A stretch of DNA of 64,000 bases from Methylacidiphilum kamchatkense Kam1. GTDB lineage: Bacteria; Verrucomicrobiota; Verrucomicrobiia; Methylacidiphilales; Methylacidiphilaceae. Where the stretch lies: the NCBI RefSeq assembly GCF_007475525.1, contig NZ_CP037899.1:558001-622000 (forward strand), read 5' to 3'. Within the stretch, counting starts at the first letter, position 1; every line of letters starts with the position of its first letter. The position numbers were made by a program, and so were the translations under genes. The notes beneath the pieces are model-generated. The model did not search any database. It was not told the origin of the DNA and saw only the letters and a program-made list of their open reading frames with translations. Below, piece after piece: positions 41,566 through 47,493 of the stretch.

Positions 41566-42750
41566 ATGATGCAAATAAAACCGTCCAAAAAAAAGTTTTT
41601 GTTGGTTGCTGGAGAAACAAGTGGAGATCTTTACGGAGCTCTGCTGATTGAAGCACTCCGAAAGTCTTTTCCAGAAGCCATTTTTTTAGGAGTGGGAGGA
41701 TCACGGATGGCGGCTGCTGGACAGATACAACTTTATGAACTTTCTAAATTGGCTGTTGTGGGACTTGTAGAAGTCATCAAAAATTTAGCTGAAATTCGAA
41801 GGATTTTTAAAGAGCTTTTGCATTGTGCCATTGTAGAAAAACCTGATTGCGTGATTTTAATAGATTATCCTGGCTTTAATCTTCGGTTTGCCTCCAAACT
41901 TCGCAAAGAATTACCTACTACTAAGATTGTTTATTATATAAGCCCTCAAGTCTGGGCATGGAATAGCCAAAGAGCAGCACGCTTCGATAAGCTCTTTGAT
42001 CTTATGGTGGTAATTTTTCCATTTGAGAAGCCATGGTTTGAGAAAAATGCCCCCAACCTGCGAGTAGAATGGGTGGGACATCCCTTGTTGGATCGACTTC
42101 TTCCTAATCCATTGCCAAATTCTCAATTTAGTTCTCACAAAATATCCCTGTTACCAGGAAGTCGGAGAATGGAAATTATCAGGCATTTGCCCATTCTTTA
42201 CCAAGTGGCATGGAAGATGGTTATGAAGAACCCCGATTATGAATTTTTATGGATTGCACCCAACGAAGAACTCGTCGAACTGGGATTGGCGCATCTAGGA
42301 GAAAAACATCTTCCGGAATGGTTGAAGATTCAGATAGGGTATCCACTTTCTCATATCTCCAGATGCCGATTAGCTATTTTAGCCTCTGGATCAGTATCTT
42401 TGGAATGTGCTATCCTTGGGGTCCCTCAGATAGTTATCTATAAAACCAATCCTTTGACGTATCAAGTGGGTAAAAGGCTTGTTAAAGTCCCATTCTTGAG
42501 TATTGTCAATGTGCTTGCTTCCGAGCAGATTGTGCCAGAATTCGTCCAAGATGATGCACAGCCAGACAAAATAGTCCCTGTAGCTTTGCGCCTGATGGAA
42601 GACGAAGAACAAAGGACTTGGATGAAAAAAAGAATGAAAGAAGTTATTGATTCCCTCGGTTCAACTGGAGCAAGCCAAAAAACCTGTAATCTAATTGTTG
42701 ATCTGCTTAACGAGGAGAAGAAAGAACAGCCATTACATCTTAGGAGTTAA
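41566..42750 (+). CDS. lpxB: lipid-A-disaccharide synthase
   Basis: 394-aa GT19 glycosyltransferase that joins lipid X to UDP-2,3-diacylglucosamine. The N-terminal LLVAGETSGDLYGALLIEAL (about residues 12-31), the central YYISPQVWAWNSQRAARFDK (about 124-143) and the C-terminal donor site SLLPGSRRMEIIRHLPIL are all present. It closes the three-gene lipid A set, and its last codons overlap the end of the convergent TPR protein gene by 18 bases. Confidence 0.94.
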   Translation: MMQIKPSKKKFLLVAGETSGDLYGALLIEALRKSFPEAIFLGVGGSRMAAAGQIQLYELSKLAVVGLVEVIKNLAEIRRIFKELLHCAIVEKPDCVILIDYPGFNLRFASKLRKELPTTKIVYYISPQVWAWNSQRAARFDKLFDLMVVIFPFEKPWFEKNAPNLRVEWVGHPLLDRLLPNPLPNSQFSSHKISLLPGSRRMEIIRHLPILYQVAWKMVMKNPDYEFLWIAPNEELVELGLAHLGEKHLPEWLKIQIGYPLSHISRCRLAILASGSVSLECAILGVPQIVIYKTNPLTYQVGKRLVKVPFLSIVNVLASEQIVPEFVQDDAQPDKIVPVALRLMEDEEQRTWMKKRMKEVIDSLGSTGASQKTCNLIVDLLNEEKKEQPLHLRS

Positions 42751-43791
42751 ACCTGGAAGGCGGGTGAGCAGTTCGGGTGGATCAGCAATTTGATCCTGAA
42801 GCTGTCCACAATAAAAAATCCGAATAATGTACCCATAAAATCTCTGATTTTGAACGGGGCGTTCTAATTTGTAATTAATCCGAAGGATTTCTGTTTGGTG
42901 TATCGTCCAAGTAGGAAGAGGGTTCTCAAAGGAGCTGGTAATTTTGGCATTTGATTGTAAAATAATGCCTTTGTCTATCTCATCATAAATATAAATTTGG
43001 TAACGGATTTGTTTGGGATCAATGCGAATGGAAGGATCGGAAAGAAAAATGGGCACCCGCAGAGTGACTTCTTGTCCCCAAGGCGTATTAGAAAGATTAC
43101 TTTTCTCAACCCGTATTTTTTCAAGACTTAACGTTTTGCCCATTCCTTGAATTCCTTTTAGAGCCGAGTGGATAAGAGGTGGGGAGGCACTGTCTTTTTT
43201 AGACTGACTTCTAAAGGCAGCTACTTTTTGACGAGCTGTTTTATAAAGAGGGCTAGAAGAGCTAGATTTGCGATCAAGCTCAGCAATTTTACTCCAATAG
43301 GTATAGGCTCTTTGTCCATCTTTCTGACGTTCAGCTAGCTGGGCTTGTCTGACAAGCACATCGCAATTGAGCGGATCTACTTCTTCGGCATTGTTTAGGG
43401 CATCGCGAGCTAGACTCAATTCGCCTTCTCTTTCAAACCGTTCGGCATCTTTAATATAAGCATCGAGTTTTTCTTCTTTATTTTCTTCTGCTAAAAAAGA
43501 AGCATCCTTTTTCAATTCTTTGGAGTGAATTGTTGGTAAGGCTGGAGGCTTAGGGGAAAGAAAAGAGGGCAATTTAAAAGAATTGTTTGCAGCGGTCAGG
43601 CGATCTTTTTTTGAAACTTGATTGAAAACATAATGTCTTAACCAGAATATGGAAAGGAGGGAGAACATTTGAAAGAATACGACAAGCACGACAAGCTTAA
43701 TTGCCCAAGAATAGATAGGAGGAGAGAGGTGTTTATTAGAAACCCGTTCTTTTGAAGAGACTTTGTCTAGTTGCATGAATTGATCAGGCAT
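42733..43791 (-). CDS. membrane-anchored TPR protein, function unknown
   Basis: 352 aa. One membrane helix near residues 32-53 (LVVLVVFFQMFSLLSIFWLR), a disordered linker, two or more TPR-like repeats (about 110-195: AERFEREGELSLARDALNNA, then RQAQLAERQKDGQRAYTYWS), then a beta-rich C-terminal domain starting about 225 (RVPIFLSDPSIRIDPKQIRY). I do not recognise the C-terminal domain. It is divergent from the sigma operon and convergent with lpxB. A dyad lies immediately before its start. Confidence 0.65.
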   Translation of the reverse strand: MPDQFMQLDKVSSKERVSNKHLSPPIYSWAIKLVVLVVFFQMFSLLSIFWLRHYVFNQVSKKDRLTAANNSFKLPSFLSPKPPALPTIHSKELKKDASFLAEENKEEKLDAYIKDAERFEREGELSLARDALNNAEEVDPLNCDVLVRQAQLAERQKDGQRAYTYWSKIAELDRKSSSSSPLYKTARQKVAAFRSQSKKDSASPPLIHSALKGIQGMGKTLSLEKIRVEKSNLSNTPWGQEVTLRVPIFLSDPSIRIDPKQIRYQIYIYDEIDKGIILQSNAKITSSFENPLPTWTIHQTEILRINYKLERPVQNQRFYGYIIRIFYCGQLQDQIADPPELLTRLPGLTPKM

Positions 43792-43807: not shown

Positions 43808-43830
43808 AAAGATGACAAGCATCTTTTTTT
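43808..43830 (+). terminator. hairpin plus T tract upstream of the sigma operon
   Basis: AAAGATG (43808-43814), loop ACAAG, CATCTTT (43820-43826) and a T run to 43830 form an intrinsic terminator on the plus strand. No plus-strand gene ends near it; the closest is lpxB, about 1 kb upstream across the opposite-strand TPR gene. It may stop lpxB read-through before the sigma operon. Confidence 0.55.
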
Positions 43831-43963: not shown

Positions 43964-44578
43964 ATGAAAAAAGCTATTCCAGAAGTACTCGATCAGTCTC
44001 CAACCGATCAGGAGCTCATTCTCAGAATGAAATCGGGAGAATTGGATGCTTTCGATATTTTAGTCGAACGCTATCAAAAAAGATTATATAGGGTGATTTA
44101 TGGTGTGCTGCTGCACCATGAAGATACAAACGACGTTTTAATGGAAACTTTTATCAAAGCCTACAAAAACATTGGAGGGTTTCGAATTGGAGCTTCTTTT
44201 TATACATGGATCTATCGTATCGCCATAAATACCGCTATAAGTTTTAAAAGGAAATCGAAATTCAACCCGCAACCCTATCCTTATTTTCCAGACGATGAGG
44301 AGGGGCAAATGGAAAAGGAATTTGTCGATTACCGTTCAGCAGAGCAAGCGGTACGACAAATGGAAATTAAGGAACTGAACAAGGTTTTGAATGATGCCTT
44401 ATCTAAGCTTTCCGAAAAGCATCGAGCCGTTGTTGTCCTTTTTGATTTAGAGGAGCTCAGCCATTCGGAAATAGCTAAAATTATGGGATGTTCGGAAGGA
44501 ACAATTCGCTCTAGATTGTTCTATGCACATAAGCAACTGCAAAAGCTATTGAAAAATGACAACAGCTTCATAAGTTAA
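43964..44578 (+). CDS. ECF sigma factor (RpoE-like)
   Basis: 204-aa sigma-70-family factor with region 2 (LDAFDILVERYQKRLYRVIY to ASFYTWIYRIAINTAISFKR, about residues 24-95) and region 4 (LSKLSEKHRAVVVLFDLEEL to SEGTIRSRLFYAHKQLQKLL, about 140-195); regions 1 and 3 are missing, as in the extracytoplasmic class. These recruit RNA polymerase to envelope or stress promoters. The next three plus-strand genes encode a TM protein in the position of an anti-sigma factor, an HtrA-like protein and an OmpA-like protein. Confidence 0.9.
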   Translation: MKKAIPEVLDQSPTDQELILRMKSGELDAFDILVERYQKRLYRVIYGVLLHHEDTNDVLMETFIKAYKNIGGFRIGASFYTWIYRIAINTAISFKRKSKFNPQPYPYFPDDEEGQMEKEFVDYRSAEQAVRQMEIKELNKVLNDALSKLSEKHRAVVVLFDLEELSHSEIAKIMGCSEGTIRSRLFYAHKQLQKLLKNDNSFIS

Positions 44579-44597
44579 AAAATGCGGAAGATGTAGA

Positions 44598-45152
44598 ATG
44601 GGAGGCTTTGATATGGAGAGAAAATGTCTTCGAACTGTGGATGTAGAAATGAAAAAATGGATAAAAACACACTTAGAAAAACAGACAGAAAAGCTTGCCA
44701 CTCCTGAATATTTTGAACAAATGCATCAAAATCTTCATAGAAGGCTCCGTGTAGAAATGATCAAAGAAAAGAGTTTTTCAGAAATGTTTATAGAAAAACT
44801 CCAAAGAGTATTTCTTGTTTGTGACCGTTACAGAATGTTCCAAACAGCGGTCGCAGGAAGTTTCCTTTTTGTATTTTTTCTAGGCATTGTGAGTTTCAAT
44901 CTACTTAAAAACCACAGTAAGGAGATACCAAATTCTTTGATTACAAAGTATGAGTCTCCAAAAATTGAAAGAGTAGAAAAAAGCCAACTTTCTCAAGCCC
45001 TTTCTCCTTCTACTCCTCCTATTTCCCTACCATCCAAACAGGATCTTGAAGTGGAATCTACCAAACTTGCTCCCAATTTCCCCAATTCTAAAGATCCACA
45101 TTATGTGATTCGTGATGCGTTAACTCATTATGAAGCGATGGTTGCTTTTTAA
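44598..45152 (+). CDS. single-pass membrane protein, candidate anti-sigma factor
   Basis: 184 aa, starting 19 bases after the sigma gene with GGAAG before the ATG. The cytoplasmic N-terminal part (about 1-92) is helical and charged, a membrane helix follows (about 93-113, AVAGSFLFVFFLGIVSFNLL) and the outer part is Pro/Ser-rich. That topology and position match an anti-sigma factor, but there is no ZAS-type zinc motif (HxxxCxxC) and I cannot match an anti-sigma domain. So the role is inferred from position. Confidence 0.6.
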   Translation: MGGFDMERKCLRTVDVEMKKWIKTHLEKQTEKLATPEYFEQMHQNLHRRLRVEMIKEKSFSEMFIEKLQRVFLVCDRYRMFQTAVAGSFLFVFFLGIVSFNLLKNHSKEIPNSLITKYESPKIERVEKSQLSQALSPSTPPISLPSKQDLEVESTKLAPNFPNSKDPHYVIRDALTHYEAMVAF

Positions 45153-45179
45153 AGGTTCTATTGTGGAGGCCTCATCGGC

Positions 45180-46247
45180 TTGCCTTTTTTTTTCTTCCTC
45201 GTTTTGGGAAGATTGCCATTGATAGGAGCTGAAAGTCTCTTTGATACTATAGGAAGAGAAGTTAACAAGATTTTTGAGGAGAATAAAAACGCTGTTGTCC
45301 GTGTTAGAATAGAGCATAGAAATGGCGGAGAAAGTTTCTGTTCAGGTTTTTTTATAAGTTCCGAAGGAGTATTGGTTACAGCACCCGATAGCCAGCTAAC
45401 CGATTCGCTGTTTTATGTTGATTATAACGCTCAATGGCATTTAGCCAAAGTTATAGGGATTGACGAGCGAAGTGGCGTAGCTGTTCTTCAAGTTGAAGAG
45501 GGTCCAAAACCCTTTCCTTTTCTAAAGCTTGCTTATGGTCAAGAGATCCCTACGGGGACCCCTGTTGTAGGCATAGGCTATCCGTATAATCTTCCCGCTT
45601 GCCCTTCCTTTGGATTGGTGGTAGGGAAAGATTGCGAATATTTAAACCATTTTTTCCCCACGACCCATTATAGGATTAATACAAAGGTGAATCCAGGCCA
45701 GATTGGTGGACCCTTAATCAATTCCAAGGGGTTGGTTGTTGGAATGATAACGATGAGTTTAAAAGAAGAAGAATGGAGTTATGCTTTGCCAAGCAAAGCA
45801 ATAAGAAAAGTTGTTGATGATACTATTCGCTATGGGAAGGTACGTTATGGGTGGGTAGGAGTGGCTGTTACCAAAATAGGAAGAGAGGAGACTTCAGGAA
45901 AAGTGGTAGTTGCACGTCTTTTCCCTAATACTCCTGTATCTGGTAGCGGGTTAAGGGAAGGGGATATTGTTGTCTCAATCAATGGGAAAAAGATTACCAG
46001 CCTGTCGGATGTAATGGATGCATCGTTCTTTGTTTCTGTGGGACAAAAAATACCCGTAAAGGTATTAAGAGATGGGAAGCCAATACAGTTCGAGTTTTTA
46101 GTTGGAGAAAGGCCGATTGACACCCCTTCGGGTTCTACGATTTTACCAAACAATCCGGACGAACTTAAAAAGAATTGGTCACAAAGCCTACCCGTAAGCA
46201 CTTCTCCAATGACTGCACCTGTGGAAAAGACAAATAATACACATTAA
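45180..46247 (+). CDS. HtrA/DegP-like PDZ protein lacking the catalytic triad
   Basis: 355 aa: signal peptide (about residues 1-18), trypsin-like domain (about 25-215) and PDZ domain (about 222-315; VVARLFPNTPVSGSGLREGD). Compared with DegP, all three triad positions are changed. The TNNHVV His site reads VTAPDSQL, the RSDIAL Asp site reads RSGVAVLQV, and the GNSGGP Ser site reads GQIGGPLINS. The fold-defining glycines remain, so the protein should fold but not cleave. Start is TTG with GGAGG about 10 bases upstream. It could be a peptide-binding sensor or chaperone in the sigma module. Confidence 0.82.
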   Translation: MPFFFFLVLGRLPLIGAESLFDTIGREVNKIFEENKNAVVRVRIEHRNGGESFCSGFFISSEGVLVTAPDSQLTDSLFYVDYNAQWHLAKVIGIDERSGVAVLQVEEGPKPFPFLKLAYGQEIPTGTPVVGIGYPYNLPACPSFGLVVGKDCEYLNHFFPTTHYRINTKVNPGQIGGPLINSKGLVVGMITMSLKEEEWSYALPSKAIRKVVDDTIRYGKVRYGWVGVAVTKIGREETSGKVVVARLFPNTPVSGSGLREGDIVVSINGKKITSLSDVMDASFFVSVGQKIPVKVLRDGKPIQFEFLVGERPIDTPSGSTILPNNPDELKKNWSQSLPVSTSPMTAPVEKTNNTH

Positions 46248-46301
46248 AGAAGATTTTTTTCTTTTCTTGTTGTTATTTAATAAAAAAGTTATTTTAAAAA
46301 A

Positions 46302-47228
46302 ATGGATCAAAAACCGGCCGTAGTACCTGTCAAAGTCCAAAAGAAAAAACAGTCGGTTTTGCCGGCAGGGGGCTTGGGAGCTGTTTTTTTTTGGGTCTCA
46401 TTAAGTGTTTTTTTAGGTGCTACAGCGGTATACTTTTATAGCCAATACATTTCTCTGGAAAAGACCATTCGAGTACTAAAAGAGGAGGATGAACTTCTCA
46501 AACAAGAAAACCAAAAGCAGCGGGCGGTTGTTGATCAACTTCAAGCCGAATTATCCCAGACAGGCAGCCTATTGAAAAGCCAAGAAGAGCTTCTTGAGAA
46601 AACCACTCAATCACTCAAAGCAGTCGAATCAAAAAAAATGGAGGAAGCTAGTGGTTCGACTAAAGATAATTCTTCTTTAACCAAAGAACTTGAAAATAGG
46701 TTAAAAGCAGCCTTTTCAGAAGAAATACAAAAAGGGGAATCCACAGTGATGCTCCAAAAAAATGGAGTGGTTGTCCGGTTTGCTAAGAGTGCCTTATTTG
46801 CCTATGGAGGCATAAAGTTAAGTACACAAGGAAAAGTTCTTTTATCCAAATTTCTCTCTGTAACAAAGCCTTTTTTGGTTAACTCTCAGGATTCAAAAAT
46901 AGAAGTTTGTTCTTTTACGGATAATGATCCACCTGCTCAGGAAGTACAAGATGTATATCCTACTAATTGGGAAATTTCTGCCATTCGTTCGGCTGCCGTT
47001 ATCAGGGCATTAATCCAGATTGGACAACTGCCTGAAGGTATATTTTCTCTTGCTGCTGGAGGAGAAACCAATCCGATAGCTGATAACAGTATGTTAGAGG
47101 GAAAGGAAAAAAATAGAAGGGTTGAAATTACTGTCTATCCAGCATCTCCTAATGCAGATTTTCGCGCTACTGTAAACCCTTCCTTGATTAATTTAGAAAA
47201 AACTAAGCAGTTGCAGCCTCACCATTAG
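46302..47228 (+). CDS. OmpA/MotB-like peptidoglycan-binding protein
   Basis: 308 aa: one N-terminal membrane helix (about residues 27-46), a coiled coil (about 48-125, rich in Glu/Lys/Gln) and an OmpA C-like domain (about 150-275) with FTDNDPPAQE and NRRVEITVYP, which carry the Asp and Arg used to bind diaminopimelate in peptidoglycan. It should span the inner membrane and grip the cell wall. It is the last gene of the sigma, TM protein and HtrA-like set, 54 bases after the HtrA-like gene. Confidence 0.8.
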   Translation: MDQKPAVVPVKVQKKKQSVLPAGGLGAVFFWVSLSVFLGATAVYFYSQYISLEKTIRVLKEEDELLKQENQKQRAVVDQLQAELSQTGSLLKSQEELLEKTTQSLKAVESKKMEEASGSTKDNSSLTKELENRLKAAFSEEIQKGESTVMLQKNGVVVRFAKSALFAYGGIKLSTQGKVLLSKFLSVTKPFLVNSQDSKIEVCSFTDNDPPAQEVQDVYPTNWEISAIRSAAVIRALIQIGQLPEGIFSLAAGGETNPIADNSMLEGKEKNRRVEITVYPASPNADFRATVNPSLINLEKTKQLQPHH

Positions 47229-47307: not shown

Positions 47308-47493
47308 TTAATAAAAGGAAGAATAAATTTTTAATCGAGCTTCTTTTGCTTTCCTTCTTCTACGATTGCAAGGTTTTTCGAAGGCTTTTCTTAATCTTGC
47401 TTCTCGAAGTGTCCCTTCTCTATCAAGCTTTCTTTTTAGTCGTCGTAAAGCCTTATCGATAGATTCTCCTTTTTTTACTTTTACTTCAGTCAT
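47308..47493 (-). CDS. rpsU: 30S ribosomal protein S21
   Basis: 61-aa basic protein with the family start TEVKVKKGESIDKALRRLKR and an Arg/Lys-rich middle (NRRRRKAKEA). S21 aids 30S initiation and Shine-Dalgarno recognition. GAAAGGA precedes the ATG. It is a single gene on its strand; the plus-strand frame over the same stretch (47277-47462) is its shadow. Confidence 0.95.
   Translation of the reverse strand: MTEVKVKKGESIDKALRRLKRKLDREGTLREARLRKAFEKPCNRRRRKAKEARLKIYSSFY

Follow-up and report, generated by a model that had tools for sequence, protein, structure and literature searches.

The genome of Methylacidiphilum kamchatkense Kam1 encodes, within a 64,000-nucleotide stretch (contig NZ_CP037899.1, positions 558,001 to 622,000, hereafter the window), an extracytoplasmic function (ECF) sigma factor, a single-pass transmembrane (TM) protein and a catalytically dead HtrA relative (pseudo-HtrA), and this trio is a real, class-wide regulatory module. 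The TM protein ends in the manner of an outer-membrane protein (OMP), and that end is kept almost without exception where pseudo-HtrA is encoded next to it. We judge it moderately likely that the trio is a sigma/anti-sigma switch for envelope (outer-membrane) stress, in which the tail of the TM protein would dock in the PDZ domain of pseudo-HtrA and the ends of unassembled OMPs would compete with it.

Conservation of the trio

The first-pass annotation of the window had grouped four genes, the trio and a downstream gene for an OmpA-domain protein, and open reading frame (ORF) calling together with Pfam and NCBIfam searches recovered all four ORFs as first placed, at 43964-47228 on the plus strand (Table 1). 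The conserved order expected of them held in part, in that the three-gene core is widely conserved, but the four-gene order is not kept beyond the family. When the best HtrA match and its flanks were fetched from 37 relatives belonging to the window's order, sigma factor, single-TM protein and pseudo-HtrA were found in a row in 34, with TM proteins of 135-196 amino acids (81 as called in L071). The three loci lacking the trio are a contig edge (L074), an HtrA with no sigma factor nearby (L070) and a locus with an ordinary HtrA only (L076). In the window's family, the OmpA gene adjoins the trio at 12 of 13 loci (the thirteenth, L057, is at a contig end), compared with 0 of 25 loci in the order's other families, several of those 25 being on short contigs. 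Thus, the OmpA gene is restricted to the window's family and is not a core gene, and the part in the system that had been assigned to it is not supported.

A collection of 53 named loci includes both Methylacidiphilales and Chthoniobacterales. A profile of the TM protein, made from proteins ending in F, matches in 285 of the 384 genomes of the class (99 have no match) and in 59 of 288 genomes sampled from the phylum, 4 of those 59 being outside the class. The TM protein of the window, when used by itself as a phylum-wide query, found few relatives (7 of 288 genomes) and was replaced by the profile. Two 0.9-Mb single-contig genomes of family f14 (G074 and G093) have no match to the profile, and G367, a larger genome that shares their genus code, has the trio; the absence represents a possible loss of the trio with genome reduction. 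Literature searches returned no description of this trio, although the sigma group itself might be described in an ECF re-classification.

The TM protein ends like an outer-membrane protein

The last residue, Phe (F184 in the window), is the sole invariant column in a 33-row alignment of TM proteins with a mean column identity of 29%. The TM protein likewise ends in F at 50 of 50 named loci with a complete gene, the remaining three (L085, L106 and L131), where the gene runs off the contig, having been left out of the count. These ends, for instance ...YEAMVAF in the window and ...YDSRLAF, ...YEASVDF and ...SYESPYSF elsewhere, resemble the hydrophobic-x-Phe-COOH termini of OMPs. In true OMPs of two families, Omp85 and BBP2 (48 loci from 15 related genomes), 46 of 46 correctly framed C-termini are aromatic (32 F, 9 Y, 5 W; L311 and L344, in the wrong frame, were left out), and the BamA-like Omp85 of the window's own genome ends in ...FDVGYSF. 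Five BBP2 porin-like proteins of the genus (L334-L337 and L339) carry an extra Trp behind the customary Phe, giving ...FW ends, and may escape, or prefer, another reader of C-terminal ends.

A wider comparison was based on 122 loci, consisting of the order's loci and 90 hand-chosen loci (about 1-7 per family) from genomes with a match to the TM profile. The three order loci lacking the trio (L070, L074 and L076) were dropped from this set, as were L066 and L077, which have a truncated sigma factor or HtrA on short contigs. L213 was excluded for want of a sigma factor, although an HtrA gene lies next and its TM protein has an F end, whereas L210 was scored as bearing pseudo-HtrA because its next ORF is one, although the profile step had missed it. 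Of the TM proteins encoded at the 86 loci with an adjacent pseudo-HtrA, 78 end in F, 7 in Y and 1 in M; the position two before the end is A, V, I, L, M, F, Y or W in 74, and Tyr occupies the seventh position from the end in 52.

Genes are close together in many loci, and a conserved end might be the by-product of a DNA-level constraint at the gene junction, such as ribosome binding or translational coupling. This explanation is scarcely credible, as it is contradicted by the nucleotide sequences, in which the terminal Phe is encoded by TTT (43 loci) or TTC (35), all three stop codons are used and 76 different hexamers follow across the 86 loci; the conservation also extends upstream to the Tyr. 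The occurrence of both Phe codons, three stops and so many following hexamers shows that the constraint on the tail acts on the protein.

The tail is retained together with pseudo-HtrA

An F or Y end is found at 85 of the 86 loci with an adjacent pseudo-HtrA versus 7 of the 36 loci without one; lineages lacking pseudo-HtrA include f12, f15, f111 and f117. At the 36 loci the end is F in six cases, Y in one and W in one, and the rest end in R, K, P, N, H, D, E or Q. Counted by family, an F or Y end is present in 33 of 34 families with pseudo-HtrA versus 3 of 31 without (Fisher P = 6e-14, a value that ignores shared ancestry). The sigma factor tree was built once and quickly from short proteins, and many of its branches are weak. 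On it, 6 changes of the last residue fall on a length of 45.6 where pseudo-HtrA is present and 21 on a length of 23.4 where it is absent, corresponding to an approximately 7-fold faster rate without pseudo-HtrA (P = 4e-6, binomial on tree length).

The N-terminal motif of the TM protein behaves differently, as its K, E and P columns have zero changes in the rows without pseudo-HtrA. Other N-terminal columns are freer in those rows, for instance H and R in the FHxRQR stretch, and the TM protein is therefore not equally held throughout. Because the rate at the last residue differs while K, E and P stay fixed, loss of pseudo-HtrA accompanies a loosened tail and not a loosened N-terminal core.

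The likeness of the tail to OMP C-termini from the same genomes would also fit a TM protein that is not an anti-sigma factor at all, with the conserved end acting as a decoy substrate of the β-barrel assembly machinery (BAM), whose failure would be signalled to the sigma factor. Such a role leaves the tie between the tail and pseudo-HtrA unexplained and is very improbable. Nor does the tail follow HtrA proteins in general: in the genomes lacking the trio's HtrA that were searched, the 30 best HtrA-like loci all carry GNSGG and so look active. Since these genomes hold active-looking HtrAs, the tail tracks the dead HtrA and not active ones.

Pseudo-HtrA has lost the catalytic triad and kept its PDZ loop

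The HtrA of the window had been called inactive, and the alignment bears this out, with D70, G99 and I175 at the His, Asp and Ser positions. None of the complete HtrAs in this alignment retains His, Asp or Ser (the truncated or misread HtrAs of L112 and L131 have no bearing on the triad), and among the 86 pseudo-HtrAs, drawn from 34 families, the catalytic His is found in 0 (one has a gap there), the Asp in 0 and the Ser in 4, with the triad kept in 0. Other parts, namely DxRSG, TTHxR, PGQxGGP and the PDZ loop GWxGV, are strongly kept, which argues for a maintained protein and against a decaying gene. The protein has the HtrA fold, a trypsin-like domain followed by PDZ, as judged from Pfam and from comparison of a structural model with DegP, DegS and MucD. 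The model has a predicted local distance difference test (pLDDT) score of 81.7, and its best matches in the PDB are DegP, and DegS with OMP-type peptides. The hydrophobic N-terminus suggests that pseudo-HtrA is secreted. In family f11 (L218-L223 and L249), pseudo-HtrA is far more degenerate, with a barely recognisable protease domain; the PDZ domain is kept and the TM tail is still aromatic.

The PDZ domain, at residues 222-309, has a putative pocket for YxF-like C-termini. W225, G227 and V228 are invariant in a 32-row alignment of pseudo-HtrAs, and the loop W225-V-G-V228 corresponds by motif to W281-L-G-V284 of AlgW. In PMC8545111, AlgW residues W281, L282 and V284 are described as touching the C-terminus of the ligand, with their mutation impairing activation, and the L282A and V284A substitutions as confirming the pocket for the ligand's last Phe. 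Where the tail ends in F, the loop Trp is present at 76 of 78 loci; where it ends in Y or M, at 4 of 8. This is a modest sign of matched change and comes from three families.

The gene order sigma-TM-HtrA, and the presence of MucD with DegP among the nearest solved relatives of pseudo-HtrA, would also be expected of a diverged AlgU-MucA-MucB-MucD or RpoE system whose HtrA serves simply as a chaperone and whose TM protein has a tail with a structural role and no PDZ binding. Against this, the set has no RseB/MucB gene and the HtrA is dead in 86 of 86 loci, and a structural tail gives no reason for its constraint to relax where HtrA is absent; this account is accordingly quite doubtful, and we give it little weight.

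The sigma factor and its putative anti-sigma factor

The sigma factor is a standard ECF factor consisting of regions sigma2 and sigma4 only (Pfam Sigma70_r2 and r4_2). It scores 108.8 bits against the NCBIfam family TIGR02937 (cut-off 42.9) and 142.1 bits against the RpoE equivalog TIGR02939, under the cut-off of 236.15.

The TM protein probably restrains the sigma factor, as suggested by its place next to it at 34 of the 37 loci fetched from the order and at 59 of 60 class and phylum loci. In a structural model (mean pLDDT 68.4), helices at residues 4-33, 36-55 and 60-74 precede a TM helix at 77-108, and the tail is disordered. The N-terminal motif, for which the family consensus is YFxxFLxEFHxRQR, is presumed to be cytoplasmic and to face the sigma factor. 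The first-pass annotation was right that the protein has no known anti-sigma motif; of the features of class I zinc anti-sigma factors, neither Hx3Cx2C nor a profile match was found in the TM protein of the window. Zinc is dispensable in some class I anti-sigma factors, according to PMC7406223. The distances of sigma factors and TM proteins correlate at 0.71, a value that is without a control and is not used as evidence.

A proposed ligand-exchange switch

In the proposed switch, the helical cytoplasmic N-terminus of the TM protein would hold the sigma factor. The flexible periplasmic segment visibly ends in OMP-like hydrophobic-x-Phe-COOH, and this tail would dock in the PDZ domain of pseudo-HtrA, as suggested by the co-occurrence of the two, the relaxed constraint after loss and the conservation of the pocket. 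Unassembled OMPs with like ends would compete for the same PDZ domain, and freeing of the tail would either lead a separate protease to destroy the TM protein, thereby releasing the sigma factor, or alter the grip on the sigma factor. The earlier suggestion that the PDZ protein handles C-terminal ends without cleaving them thus gains support, as the OMP-like end that is tied to pseudo-HtrA gives it a concrete candidate partner.

More tentatively, we put forward as a possibility that the anti-sigma factor mimics an OMP C-terminus with its own tail, and that the secreted pseudoprotease is a pure competition sensor whose PDZ domain is occupied by the tail when the cell is at rest and by the ends of unassembled OMPs when it is stressed, the mechanism being ligand exchange with no activation of a protease. 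Within the class, the arrangement may be ancestral or at least very ancient, and several lineages may have lost it along with the tail. If true, this would provide a defined envelope-stress switch for a large and poorly studied bacterial class and a function for a conserved dead protease, and would mean that a PDZ sensor of misfolded OMPs can operate without being a protease. The prediction narrows to one C-terminal Phe and one PDZ pocket.

Several points weigh against the proposed switch. Too few events are available for phylogenetically independent testing; across the sigma tree, the HtrA label changes 7 times and the tail 6 times, and an independent-pairs sign test had only 3 well-supported pairs (p = 1) and no power. 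Three families (f12, f76 and f32) retain an aromatic F or Y end without an adjacent pseudo-HtrA, and none was found among the best matches elsewhere in their genomes, while f107 has pseudo-HtrA and yet a TM protein ending in Met. The TM protein has no family match at the Pfam cut-off and none at E<=0.1 in NCBIfam, and its model has no fold match in the PDB, with Foldseek giving one chance match (E 9.3), meaning that the anti-sigma role is assigned by position (adjacency) and topology only. Patterns tried for an ECF-type autoregulatory promoter upstream of the sigma gene gave no convincing enrichment over shuffles. Docking of the tail in PDZ, binding of the sigma factor and competition by OMPs are all inferred from sequence and gene context.

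The three families with an aromatic end and no pseudo-HtrA would be accommodated if the tail were a degron that an active HtrA, acting as site-1 protease, recognised through its PDZ domain, with pseudo-HtrA shielding or modulating it in the manner of RseB/MucB, or forming mixed oligomers with active HtrAs. HtrA paralogues in the window's genome, and active HtrAs in the searched genomes without the trio's HtrA, could supply such a protease. However, most families without pseudo-HtrA lose the tail although active HtrAs remain in those searched, and the degron explanation is unlikely. In f12 (five loci, L236-L240), the TM proteins are 260-286 amino acids long, have no adjacent pseudo-HtrA and still end in ...KF; these ends possibly reflect a folded C-terminal domain or another PDZ partner.

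Genomic setting of the locus

The host genome is a single contig of 2,202,032 bases, and among the named relatives scanned the closest is Methylacidiphilum sp. Yel, with an HtrA that is 94% identical. The OmpA-domain protein consists of a TM helix, a coiled-coil-like stretch and a C-terminal OmpA domain.

Table 1. Features of the sigma/TM/pseudo-HtrA locus, in window coordinates
Feature	Position	Strand	Basis
ECF sigma factor, 204 amino acids; RpoE-like, below RpoE equivalog cut-off	43964..44578	+	Pfam Sigma70_r2, r4_2; TIGR02939
Single-pass TM protein, 184 amino acids; proposed anti-sigma factor	44598..45152	+	Sigma adjacency, model
TM protein, conserved N-terminal motif, residues 38-51, YFxxxxxxLHRRLR	44709..44750	+	Alignments of TM proteins
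TM protein, hydrophobic membrane span, about residues 81-103	44838..44906	+	Sequence; helix 77-108 in model
TM protein, OMP-like C-terminus YEAMVAF-COOH, proposed PDZ ligand	45129..45149	+	Alignment, end counts
Pseudo-HtrA, 355 amino acids, TTG start; dead trypsin-like domain and one PDZ domain	45180..46247	+	Pfam Trypsin_2, PDZ_2; model
Pseudo-HtrA, lost catalytic His position, Asp70	45387..45389	+	Alignment
Pseudo-HtrA, lost catalytic Asp position, Gly99, motif DxRSG	45474..45476	+	Alignment
Pseudo-HtrA, lost catalytic Ser position, Ile175, motif PGQIGGP	45702..45704	+	Alignment
Pseudo-HtrA, PDZ carboxylate-binding loop W225-V-G-V228	45852..45863	+	Alignment; AlgW motif likeness
OmpA-domain protein, 308 amino acids, inner-membrane-anchored; accessory, family-level only	46302..47228	+	Pfam OmpA; synteny

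A plus-strand terminator at 43808-43830 had been thought to isolate the set. This candidate, an A/U-rich 9-bp stem of -7.0 kcal/mol, is no better than shuffles (z = -1.05) and is absent from the output of a consensus terminator scan, and the claim is dropped. A terminator would in any case be superfluous for this purpose, because lpxB ends at 42750, upstream of the sigma gene, and a minus-strand gene at 42733-43791 intervenes. No inverted repeats were found in the region. The minus-strand gene overlaps the end of lpxB and encodes a divergent TM/tetratricopeptide repeat (TPR)-like protein, for which a Pfam search gave no family match at its cut-off; it adjoins the trio in the window's family. 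On the other side, convergent with the OmpA gene, is a minus-strand 61-amino-acid ORF (47308-47493) that by eye looks like ribosomal protein bS21.

Comparison with known systems

Dead HtrA relatives of the MamO type share with pseudo-HtrA an HtrA fold from which the catalytic residues have been lost, and the NCBIfam MamE/MamO families are among its weak matches. MamO is proteolytically dead and is not known to be linked to a sigma factor. The TM protein resembles class I and II ECF anti-sigma factors (RseA, RskA and RsiW; CnrY) in that a helical N-terminus in the cytoplasm is followed by a TM helix and the gene lies beside that of the sigma factor; unlike them, it lacks a family match, Hx3Cx2C and a fold match, and has a conserved motif of its own. 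Background on the class I anti-sigma domain is given in PMC7406223.

The E. coli RpoE-RseA-RseB-DegS-RseP system likewise combines an ECF sigma factor, a single-pass TM protein and a PDZ-HtrA protein, and its signal is likely to be OMP C-termini (YxF); PMC8103513 summarises, among other topics, this signal and DegS. DegS, however, is an active protease that is switched on by OMP ends, whereas the HtrA of the trio is dead and encoded beside the sigma factor. Moreover, the TM protein of the trio itself bears an OMP-like end, and the set has no RseB gene: only four ORFs of at least 80 amino acids lie on the plus strand at 43964-47228, none of which matches the RseB/MucB family in Pfam or NCBIfam.

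In Pseudomonas, the gene order AlgU-MucA-(..)-MucD corresponds to sigma-TM-(..)-HtrA, as in the trio, and the W-L-G-V loop of AlgW is comparable to W-V-G-V here. The AlgW PDZ domain binds ...WVF ends, as stated in PMC8545111. MucD and AlgW are active, and the PDZ ligand MucE is a separate protein, in contrast to the dead HtrA of the trio and a set without MucB. The closest working analogues are thus RpoE/RseA/DegS and AlgU/MucA/AlgW, and by analogy the trio may work alike; on the features compared, it falls outside both systems because its HtrA is dead, it has no RseB/MucB gene and its sigma factor is under the RpoE cut-off. The parts themselves are known, and what is new is the way in which they are arranged, with an anti-sigma-like protein whose end mimics an OMP placed beside a PDZ pseudoprotease.

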